Part shown: positions 25,982-32,011 of the stretch, one piece after another | How the letters are laid out: each line of letters opens with the position of its first letter | Position numbering within the stretch: position 1 is the stretch's first letter | Assembly: GCF_001721685.1 (NCBI RefSeq) | Contig: NZ_CP012502.1 | Location: 1,240,001-1,304,000, forward strand | Reading direction: 5' to 3' | Source: Salisediminibacterium beveridgei | GTDB taxonomy: Bacteria; Bacillota; Bacilli; Bacillales; Salisediminibacteriaceae | Length of the DNA: 64,000 nucleotides | The notes under the pieces: model-generated | What the model saw: only the letters and a program-made list of their open reading frames with translations | The model's database searches: none | What the model was told of the DNA's origin: nothing | Program-made: the position numbers and the translations under genes

Positions 25982-26031
25982 ACATTTATAAAGTTGCACA
26001 AGGTAAACATTTATAGATGGAGGTAATTAAT

Positions 26032-26946
26032 ATGGGCAAGGTTAAATTAATGCTGGCATTTTTATCGGTAGCGTTGCTGGCTGCGTGTGGTAATGATCAA
26101 AATAATGAAGAAAATGCTGCTTCAGAAAACGATGCTGGCATTTTTGTAACGACCAGTTTTTCGATCCTGGCAGATGTGATTGACGGCGTTCTTGGTGATA
26201 GTGGAGAAGTGGACTATCTGGTGCCGATCGGGGAAGAACCTCATGAATATGAACCTGTTCCATCTGACTTTCGGAAGGTCAGTGATTCATCTGTTTTTTA
26301 TACCAATGGGTTAGGCCTTGAAGAGTGGCTCGAACGATTAATCGAAAATACAGGTGAAACGCCGGTTAAATCCTTATCAGAGGGGGTAACCGAAATTCCG
26401 CTGGAAGGTGAGAGCGGAGCCGATCCACATGCATGGCTGGATCCTGCAAATATAGAGATTTATGCAGAGAATGTCCTGGCGGATTTAAGCGAACGCTTCC
26501 CGGATCATAAGGAGATTTTCGCAGAAAATGCCGAGACCTATATCCAGGAGATCAACGAATTGGATGAATGGATTAAAGAACAAGTTGAGGGGATCCCTGA
26601 AGAAAACCGGATCATCGTTGTCAGTGAAAATGCCTTCAAATATTACGGGGAAGCCTACGACTTTGAAACTGCAGGTATCTGGGAAATCAATTCCGGTGAA
26701 GAGGGCACGTCTGGACAGATTAATGCGATAATCGATCTGGTGAGAGACCGGGACATCCCTTCTCTCTTTGTGGAAACAACCGTTGACAGCCGCTATATAG
26801 AGACTGTTTCAGAGGATACAGGAGTGAACATCGCGGGCGAAGTGTATACTGACGCGGTTGGAATGGATGGTTCAGGAGCGGAAACTTATGTGGATATGAT
26901 GCGTCACAATACAGAAGTATTTGTTGACGGATTGATGAATCAGTAA
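26032..26946 (+). CDS. manganese-type metal ABC transporter substrate-binding lipoprotein
   Basis: 304-residue cluster-9 binding protein with a lipoprotein signal (LLAAC, lipid cysteine about C19). The four metal ligands are visible: H71 in EPHEYEP, H133 in DPHAWLDP, E199 in VSENAFKYY and D274 in VYTDAVG. Glu rather than His at the third position is typical of the Mn-binding PsaA/MntC group, not ZnuA. I chose ATG 26032 because GGAGG lies between it and the earlier ATG 26017. No ATPase or permease gene is adjacent, so it is an orphan component. Confidence 0.88.
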   Translation: MGKVKLMLAFLSVALLAACGNDQNNEENAASENDAGIFVTTSFSILADVIDGVLGDSGEVDYLVPIGEEPHEYEPVPSDFRKVSDSSVFYTNGLGLEEWLERLIENTGETPVKSLSEGVTEIPLEGESGADPHAWLDPANIEIYAENVLADLSERFPDHKEIFAENAETYIQEINELDEWIKEQVEGIPEENRIIVVSENAFKYYGEAYDFETAGIWEINSGEEGTSGQINAIIDLVRDRDIPSLFVETTVDSRYIETVSEDTGVNIAGEVYTDAVGMDGSGAETYVDMMRHNTEVFVDGLMNQ

Positions 26947-26955
26947 GTAATATGG

Positions 26956-26999
26956 TTGCAAGAGGGTAATGGCCATGTTACTATACCCTTATAGGTATA
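26956..26999 (+). promoter_or_regulatory. promoter and palindromic operator of the HesB-like selenoprotein gene
   Basis: TTGCAA (26956-26961), 17 bases, TACTAT (26979-26984). The perfect inverted repeat TATACC-CTTATA-GGTATA (26982-26999) overlaps the -10 and expected start site. Its shape resembles CsoR/CstR-type operators (ATACC...GGTAT), sensors of copper or persulfide, but assignment to that family is inference. Confidence 0.6.
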
Positions 27000-27018
27000 A
27001 AAATGGAGAGGTGAGACT

Positions 27019-27303
27019 ATGAATATTACAGACAAAGCTAAAGGTTACATCCAGAACATTCTGGACGAGAATGGTGCAGCGAACATTAAAGTGTACGTTG
27101 CAGGCATGGGCTGAGGCGGCCCACAATTAGGACTGGCTCTGGATGAGCCGTCAAAGACTGATATTGTTGAAGAGATCAATGGGATTAAAGTTGCATTCGA
27201 ACAGCATGTACACGGACAGACCGGCAACATGGCCCTGGACTTCCAGGAAACCCCGCAGGGAAGCGGACTCGTCATGACCGGTAATGAAAGTGACTGTTGC
27301 TGA
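27019..27303 (+). CDS. HesB/IscA-like selenoprotein with in-frame TGA (Sec32)
   Basis: A 94-residue HesB/IscA-like protein read through a TGA at 27112-27114. Upstream: 'MNITDKAKGYIQNIL' to 'KVYVAGMG'; downstream: 'GGPQLGLALDEPSKTDIVEE' to 'GNESDCC', then a normal TGA. In relatives the codon is Cys (GMGCGGP...LALDEP); a family of HesB-like proteins with Sec at this cysteine is already known. A SECIS-like hairpin lies 17-38 bases after the TGA. GAGAGGTGAG precedes ATG 27019. The frame has its own promoter and terminator. The C-terminal Cys-Cys and Sec probably bind a metal or Fe-S cluster, or act in redox; the cellular role is unproven. Conventional gene calling would miss or split it. Confidence 0.88.
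27131..27152 (+). promoter_or_regulatory. bacterial SECIS-like hairpin within the HesB-like gene
   Basis: GAC (27131-27133) and GGCTC (27135-27139) pair with GAGCC (27145-27149) and GTC (27150-27152): eight base pairs, a single bulged T at 27134, and a five-base loop TGGAT. The loop begins 25 bases after the TGA and has G at its second position, which agrees with the known bacterial SECIS rules (G in the first two loop positions, 16-37 base distance, bulged U in the E. coli fdhF element). Confidence 0.8.
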
Positions 27304-27340: not shown

Positions 27341-27377
27341 AGGTCAGAATCCAATAGGGTTCTGACCACTTTTTTTT
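27341..27377 (+). terminator. terminator after the HesB-like gene
   Basis: GGTCAGAATCC and GGGTTCTGACC pair around an AATA loop, followed by ACTTTTTTTT. Confidence 0.85.
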
Positions 27378-30743: not shown

Positions 30744-30868
30744 GTCATGTCACCTCACATCTTCTTTCATCTTAAGGCAGGATCTTCCATAGGTAAAGCC
30801 TTTTCATTTCATTCTGAGTTTTGAAGGTTTATAATGAGTTAAACAACATGGAAAAGGTGGTTATCCGC

Positions 30869-32011
30869 ATGAAAAAAAGATGGATTCAGGTGGCAATTGC
30901 AGCGGTCGTAATCGTTTTGTTGATTCCGGTGGGACAAATTGCATATGATGCCACTTTTAATAAATCATCCGGGAGTGTGGCTTCTGTATCTCCTGTCACC
31001 GATGAGGAAGCATTGGCAACTTTTGCCGGGGGCTGCTTCTGGTGCATGGAGCCGCCTTTTGACGGTGTAGAAGGTGTCATGGAAGTATACTCCGGCTACA
31101 CTGGCGGCCAGGAAGAATACCCCGCATATGAAGACGTGGCATCCGGTAATACCGATCATGTGGAAGCGGTACAGGTACGTTTTGATCCGGATCGCATCGC
31201 TTATGAGGATTTATTGCAAATTTTCTGGCGCCAAATCGATCCGACAGATGCAGATGGACAATTCGTCGACCGGGGTCATCAATACAGTACAGCAATCTTT
31301 TATCATAACGGTGAACAAAGGGATTTGGCTGAAGCCTCGAAGCGGGATCTTGAAGAATCCGGGCGGTTCAATGAACCTGTCATCACGCCTGTTTTAGAAG
31401 CAGAAGCGTTTTACAAAGCAGAAGAGTATCATCAGAAATTCTATCAGGAGAATCCCGTTCGCTATCAAGCCTATCGCGCAGCTTCCGGAAGGGACAGTTT
31501 TCTGGATGAATACTGGGGCGATGAACGCAATTATGAACCAACGTCATACGACCCTGCCGACTCAAAGTACGCCGTTGACTATACGGACGAGGAGTTGGAA
31601 GAGATGCTGATGCCAATCCAGTATGAAGTCACTCAGCTCGATGGAACAGAGCCCGCATACCGGAATGCGTATTGGGACCACTATGAAGACGGGATCTACG
31701 TCGATGTGGTCTCTGGAGAACCGTTGTTCAGCTCACGGGACCAATACGATTCAGAAACAGGCTGGCCGAGTTTTACACAGCCGATTGATGAGCATTACAT
31801 TTTAGAAGAAGAAGACCGCAAACTCTTGGTGGTTCGAACAGAGATCCGGAGCCGTTATGGTGATTCACACTTGGGTCACGTGTTTGAAGATGGGCCGGAA
31901 CCAACCGGACTGCGTTATTGCATGAATTCCGCAGCACTTCGCTTCATTCCTCTGGAAGATATGGAGGAAGAAGGATACGAAGATTATATCGATGAAGTTA
32001 CTTCTTCTTAA
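30869..32011 (+). CDS. msrAB: membrane-anchored methionine sulfoxide reductase MsrAB fusion
   Basis: Repairs oxidised methionine, both S- and R-sulfoxides. 380 residues: an N-terminal membrane anchor (about 4-26), an MsrA domain with catalytic C56 in GGCFWCM, a linker, and an MsrB domain with catalytic C351 in [13 protein letters not shown]. The CxxC zinc pairs of many MsrB domains are absent ('[12 protein letters not shown]' where one pair would be). ATG 30869 follows AAGGTGG; ATG 30821 has no ribosome site. The anchor suggests repair of extracytoplasmic proteins. The terminator (32010-32046) lies inside the convergent DUF3006 gene. Confidence 0.92.

Follow-up and report, generated by a model that had tools for sequence, protein, structure and literature searches.

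The gene at positions 27019..27303 (forward strand) of the window, that is, of the whole 64,000-nucleotide stretch of DNA analysed here, almost certainly encodes a functional HesB-like (IscA-fold) selenoprotein, as judged from its sequence and those of its relatives. The frame opens with an ATG at 27019, meets a TGA as codon 32 (27112..27114, forward strand) and runs on through 62 open codons, ending with TGA at 27301-27303; with selenocysteine (Sec) inserted, the predicted product of 94 residues, including Sec32, reads MNITDKAKGYIQNILDENGAANIKVYVAGMGUGGPQLGLALDEP...GNESDCC. A preliminary description had claimed an in-frame TGA at a conserved-Cys position with 62 open codons after it, and coordinates and translation agree: the internal TGA lies in the motif GMG-U-GGP, where relatives have Cys, and orthologs with a TGA at the same codon occur in 27 of 35 family genomes. 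The gene and its TGA are likewise present in Salisediminibacterium halotolerans. The window gene thus unites the features by which a selenoprotein gene is recognised, namely an in-frame UGA, a SECIS hairpin at the usual distance, and selA, selB, selC and selD in the genome. The host belongs to the genus Salisediminibacterium in the family Bacillaceae, as had been proposed, and the selenoprotein branch in Bacilli that the gene represents scores below the cut-offs of the curated annotation models tested.

The hairpin behind the UGA and the expression signals

The hairpin behind the UGA (27131..27152, forward strand) is a predicted SECIS element, a call that rests on its fold, on covariation and on the comparison of Sec with Cys forms. 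Its 8 pairs, GAC-(bulged T27134)-GGCTC [TGGAT] GAGCC-GTC, enclose the loop TGGAT at 27140-27144, and the loop begins 25 bases past the TGA, exactly as first described; the usual bacterial spacing between UGA and SECIS is 16-37 nt. Fold stability gave a z of -2.78, with 3 of 200 shuffles at least equally stable, on a 60-nt piece that also includes a second hairpin over the TGA. This second, small hairpin is predicted over the UGA itself, at 27107-27123 (TGGGCTG AGG CGGCCCA). Covariation in the 8-pair helix goes beyond chance: across 44 sequences (42 distinct), 86.9% of helix cells pair, changes on both sides occur in 6/8 pairs, and cells with both partners changed number 38, where shuffles give 11.6 +/- 2.7 (0/500 as high); the covariation score of 0.308 compares with 0.098 when shuffled (0/500 as high) and with at most 0.098 when the helix is slid. 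The outer pairs 20-41, 21-40 and 22-39 are broken in 16, 19 and 7 of 42 sequences, respectively, and among the inner five pairs only 25-37 is broken, in 2. Since the RNAalifold consensus has 7 pairs and no bulge, the bulged U of the window fold appears dispensable in some members. A search of Rfam returned sub-threshold matches only and no SECIS match.

The association of hairpin and UGA extends to the wider set of relatives. When scored as present if at least four of the inner five pairs form and the loop holds GG, the hairpin is found in 49/49 distinct Sec forms and in 0/27 distinct Cys forms, and codon 41 is CTG in 49/49 of the former against 4/27 of the latter. These forms are distinct proteins, counted once duplicates and 12 named loci already represented by family genomes had been removed; the set includes one frameshifted Sec copy (from genome G018) and excludes three SufA-like loci (L110-L112). 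The wider search had given 56 matches in 47/299 genomes and 29 new loci, of which 26 were read first and two (L147 and L156) afterwards, with L152 giving no clear reading; L147 and L156 both have the TGA and stand outside the 49. Codons 40 and 43 are each GCG 8 times, jointly, replacing GCT...GAG, so that a Glu-to-Ala change is paired with a silent change across the stem; this is a clear case of an RNA hairpin inside a gene coupling protein changes (Ala, Glu from GCT...GAG versus Ala, Ala from GCG...GCG). From what is established about SelB and SECIS elements, SelB docked on the hairpin with its UGGAU loop would deliver Sec-tRNA-Sec to the UGA, and Sec insertion would therefore yield the 94-residue protein in place of a 31-residue stub.

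Two other readings of the stop codons were rejected. Reassignment of UGA in the host is contradicted by the window gene itself, which ends with TGA, as do 8/27 family copies (the others ending in TAA, 18, or TAG, 1). The terminal TGA was likewise discarded as a second Sec codon, because TAA or TAG stands there in 19/27 copies and, by eye, no SECIS-like hairpin lies 16-37 nt past it in the window gene.

The signals around the frame, which had also been described, fared unequally. The ribosome binding site AGAGGTGA was found at 27007..27014 (forward strand), read from the sequence, and GGTG-like motifs precede the ortholog starts. A possible promoter of the gene's own, TTGCAA-17-TACTAT with a TG before it (26956..26984, forward strand), was read by hand, and similar sites recur in relatives. 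The window alone does not bear the promoter claim out, as a scan found 3 sites against 3.1 expected by chance, and only comparison helps: a promoter-like site scoring at least 9 is present in 22/27 family copies versus 10.5% of mononucleotide shuffles of the 130 bases upstream. Two hand-scored sites compete in the window, TTGACG-18-TAATAT at 26924 and TTGCAA-17-TACTAT at 26956, and the scripted pick is that at 26924, the first of equal score. In 23/27 copies the distance from the start of the first hexamer to the start codon is 61-72 bases, and in the three Salisediminibacterium genomes it is 94-97. An inverted repeat, ATACC-CTTATA-GGTAT at 26983-26998, is kept (by eye) between the upstream lipoprotein gene and hesB in three Salisediminibacterium genomes and could be an operator. 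Past the frame, the proposed intrinsic terminator was found as an 11-pair stem-loop followed by a T-run (27342..27367, forward strand), although its count alone proves nothing, because the scan expects 1.0 by chance; equivalents, a hairpin and T-run of unlike sequence past the stop, were seen by eye in two relatives (G033 and G032).

Selenocysteine machinery and conservation of the frame

The working Sec system implied by the preliminary description has all of its expected genes, and the absence of selB or selC that would have spoken against the gene was looked for and both were present. The tRNA-Sec gene lies at C1:1846763-1846855 (63.4 bits, cut-off 47; ARAGORN concurs) and is adjoined by selB (347.6 bits, cut-off 242.25), next to which stands selA (533.5 bits, cut-off 267.9). 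Elsewhere in the genome is selD (395.4 bits, cut-off 125), with one internal TGA of its own. The formate dehydrogenase alpha gene (fdhA) also contains a single TGA, and behind it stands a hairpin whose loop is GGTCT. Among 14 well-known control genomes, matches over the cut-offs occurred in 5 genomes for tRNA-Sec, 2 for selB and 2 for selD, and weaker cross-matches occurred in 14/14. The genes cofG and cofH, for deazaflavin precursor synthesis (L009:13115-15368, contig C1 of the window genome at about 1.85 Mb), lie within a few kb of this cluster, and both score over their NCBIfam cut-offs.

The TGA gene and the machinery are distributed together. In the 35 family genomes, the TGA gene and selB co-occur in 26, neither is found in 5, selB alone in 3 (G011, G015, G016) and the TGA gene alone in 1 (Fisher p 0.0009), selB being counted when over its cut-off; this last genome, G018, is 76% complete and 6% contaminated. 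Similarly, selD is present in 25/27 TGA-gene genomes, the exceptions being G018 and G006 (80% complete), and one TGA is present in 27/28 selD genes overall. Among 25 further Bacilli genomes, selB occurs in 14/14 with the TGA gene, 3/9 with a Cys form and 0/2 with a SufA-like match only. A TGA-containing formate dehydrogenase is found in 12/35 family genomes, all within the 27, such that 15/27 have the HesB-like Sec gene without a TGA-containing formate dehydrogenase at the threshold of E <= 1e-100. Other Sec clients may exist, because selB and selD persist in G011, G015 and G016, where no HesB-like gene and no formate dehydrogenase with a TGA was found (the selD of G015 being without TGA). One formate dehydrogenase frame of another genome (G022:C9:159534-161555) contains one TGA and one TAA and is perhaps decaying; the other G022 copy has the TGA only.

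It might be supposed that the window gene is a pseudogene or contains a sequencing error, a Cys codon having recently been lost to TGA with no Sec insertion, as an in-frame TGA in a short gene could indicate, and one family copy, that of G018, is in fact frameshifted, near codon 76. Against this, TGA occupies the codon throughout the 27 family orthologs and also in 49 distinct Bacilli proteins; downstream of it dN is much smaller than dS, and a covarying hairpin is tied to the TGA. Decay of the downstream half in relatives was looked for, and the other 26/27 frames are open to the C-terminus. On either side of the UGA, dN is lower than dS in the 8 pairs compared, with dS saturated in several; between the window genome and G033, dN after the UGA is 0.028 and dS 0.332, and purifying selection evidently acts there. 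A pseudogene is accordingly an extremely improbable reading. A division into two ORFs, or a gene beginning past the TGA, may be suggested by one annotated protein of this kind, the 56-aa hypothetical protein P0002 of Bacillus shivajii. It is in this one relative that the expectation of a gene truncated by standard annotation was borne out, and its annotated start is a TTG within the SECIS stem. Moreover, the 31 codons that lead up to the TGA show conservation with dN < dS and follow the ribosome site, and the predicted IscA fold spans both halves, making a split or late-starting gene every bit as improbable.

Fold, neighbourhood and possible function

The HesB homology of the window protein was upheld by PF01521 (Fe-S_biosyn), at 27.1 bits against a gathering score of 26.3. 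An AlphaFold2 model (35 sequences, Cys for Sec) has a mean pLDDT of 88.7, with the last three residues below 50; its best PDB match is IscA 1r94 (TM 0.80), and Foldseek at E <= 0.001 gives nine matches, all to chains of IscA, SufA, DsrR and the small proteins HI1723 and AQ_1857. The sequence profile likewise finds HI1723, AQ_1857 and IscA. The A-type Fe-S carriers IscA, SufA and ErpA hold three Cys as C...CGC. The window protein is predicted to have the IscA fold but has no such triad; instead it offers U32 and a Cys pair, C93-C94, at the very C-terminus, with no CGC. Sec32 would then stand where IscA-type proteins have their first ligand Cys and, together with Cys93-Cys94 on a flexible tail, may make up a selenol/thiol site for binding or shuttling a soft metal, a metalloid or an Fe-S cluster.

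The same genome contains a Cys paralog (GMGCC), set in the order arsR-arsD-hesB-arsA-arsB, and also L017, an A-type gene whose product has a CGCG tail. The link to arsenic genes is common among Cys forms: arsA and/or arsD lie nearby in 21/27 distinct Cys forms versus 3/49 Sec forms (Fisher 1.5e-10, only a guide because the rows are related), counts that are lower bounds because the flanks searched spanned some 1.5 kb around most family copies and 4-5 kb elsewhere. In two loci (L055 and L054) the hesB of an acr3-arsC-arsD-arsA-hesB arrangement is itself a Sec form; acr3, arsD and arsA of L055 were named by Pfam, and its arsC and the L054 genes other than arsA and arsD by resemblance. The residue after Sec is Gly in 49/49, and that after Cys is Cys in 24/27 and Gly in 3/27. 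A tree of the 76 proteins, built on few columns, requires 5 changes of the Sec/Cys label, 2 of them forced by well-supported branches. Among Sec forms, the C-terminus carries a single Cys in L035 and L046 and none in L056. This last locus (L056:2037-2315, in G029) is a very divergent third HesB-like frame behind a PF01758 (ACR3-like) gene, with one TGA, a TGGAT hairpin (GGTTC...GAACC) and no Cys pair at its end.

Directly upstream of the window gene, on the same strand, lies a gene (26017..26946, forward strand) for a metal-binding lipoprotein of the ZnuA family (PF01297, 267 bits), which from its Pfam match and conserved position may be a functional partner; among NCBIfam models it comes closest to those for Mn/Fe or metal binding lipoproteins, in every case under the cut-off. 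A PF01297-type gene lies 61-127 nt upstream in 18/27 family copies, the one before L034 being broken up, and is absent within 1.5 kb in the other 9/27. Outside the family, no locus with 4-kb flanks has an adjacent PF01297-type gene; in ten Fictibacillus loci a distant match (21-25% identical) lies on the other strand, 2.1-3.0 kb away. Further upstream, an S9-type peptidase (named by resemblance) occurs in 8/12 loci and an amylase gene in 6/12, and shared ancestry may therefore explain part of the upstream synteny. Downstream in the window, at 30821-32011, is a methionine sulfoxide reductase (MsrA-MsrB) fusion; by eye, its N-terminus is hydrophobic and it has a Cys in GCFWC.

These observations suggest that the window protein may be a selenol/thiol metal- or metalloid-handling protein built on the IscA fold, a tentative reading with something short of an even chance of being correct. 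It is favoured over general Fe-S assembly because paralogs sit in arsenic operons and a metal-binding lipoprotein gene is adjacent. Weighing against the functional reading are the missing C-terminal CGC, the 9/27 family copies that have no such neighbour within 1.5 kb, its lack of adjacency outside the family, the partly general upstream synteny and the Sec forms whose Cys end is incomplete. A role in Fe-S cluster scaffolding or transfer like that of IscA, SufA or ErpA, with Sec as a ligand, would agree with the fold, the best PDB matches and the PF01521 score; it is somewhat unlikely, as the C-terminal CGC is absent, the genome has the other A-type gene with its CGCG tail, and relatives occupy ars operons. 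Many Sec proteins are redox enzymes, and Sec32 with Cys93 or Cys94 as resolving residue would supply the groups for such chemistry, one Sec and two Cys. This is the least probable of these functions, given an IscA fold without a UxxC or TxxU motif and a nearest redox gene, the MsrA-MsrB fusion, that lies 3.5 kb downstream and has a relative in only 1/11 other loci (G033). Metal or metalloid handling would hence rank first, Fe-S scaffolding second and redox catalysis third. A more specific hypothesis extends the metal-handling reading: the Bacilli HesB-like selenoprotein would be a metal/metalloid chaperone and not an Fe-S scaffold, one Sec-Gly would replace the vicinal Cys-Cys of the arsenic-operon relatives, and in many Bacilli the protein would be the chief client for which the Sec machinery is retained; taken as a whole, this is rather doubtful. 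The Bacilli set provides a handle on function: it includes cultured species, a single genome can contain both a Sec and a Cys paralog, and the arsenic-operon branch suggests assays.

Relation to known proteins and systems

Both NCBIfam models of HesB-like selenoproteins recognise the branch at a distance. TIGR01911 (HesB_rel_seleno), with which a comparison had been proposed, does match the window protein, but at 45 bits, under its cut-off of 66.35 (Cys written for Sec); among 10 relatives the best scores 59.4, seven score 46.1-51.8 and two are absent at E<=1e-11. For NF038090 (IscA_HesB_Se) the window protein scores 55.5 bits against a cut-off of 85, with nine of the 10 relatives at 47.3-56 and one absent. 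The two models match 22/22 members of the family alignment, none of which appears to exceed either cut-off, judging from E-values for the set and from bit scores for five. Searching 5.8 billion proteins with Cys for Sec returned two short fragments only, a search that records carrying U would escape. That HesB-like proteins with Sec were already described is confirmed by two papers that count them: 11 were known by 2006, when Bacillales had 3 selenoproteins in 3 families (PMC1794560), and 90 in 86 organisms were counted in 2016 (PMC5029168). A 2026 review lists them with the motif UxGP (PMC13188914), which UGGP of the window protein fits. A literature search, with most subscription papers outside it, produced no report of the Bacilli branch or of HesB-like selenoprotein function.

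Comparison with known systems places the window protein among several partial likenesses. With the A-type carriers IscA, SufA and ErpA it shares the fold and the position of the first ligand, and it differs in having Sec for Cys and no C-terminal CGC. The SAO system, as outlined in the 2026 review (PMC13188914), comprises the selenoprotein SaoC, ending Cys-Cys-COOH, and the binding subunits SaoX and SaoB, and resembles the present locus in the Cys-Cys end and a nearby ABC substrate-binding protein. By that description the window protein differs in its Sec within an IscA fold and its neighbour without internal TGA, and the SaoC model NF040734 is not among the 10 families matched by the window protein up to E=1. 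A HesB-like gene is also recorded in an ars operon of Bacillus sp. CDB3 (PMC4562236, PMC5481582). This gene, ORF7 of the ars1 operon, is alike, by its description in PMC4562236, in being a Bacillus HesB-like gene, and the Cys relatives found here adjoin arsD and arsA, whereas the gene in the window encodes a Sec form and lies outside any ars operon. Closest are the HesB-like selenoproteins of TIGR01911 and NF038090, themselves already known, with which the window protein shares the IscA-type protein, Sec in UxGP and a SECIS behind the UGA; what is newly added is a Bacilli branch that falls under both NCBIfam cut-offs and is set apart by its Cys-Cys end and by a lipoprotein gene upstream in 18/27 family copies.
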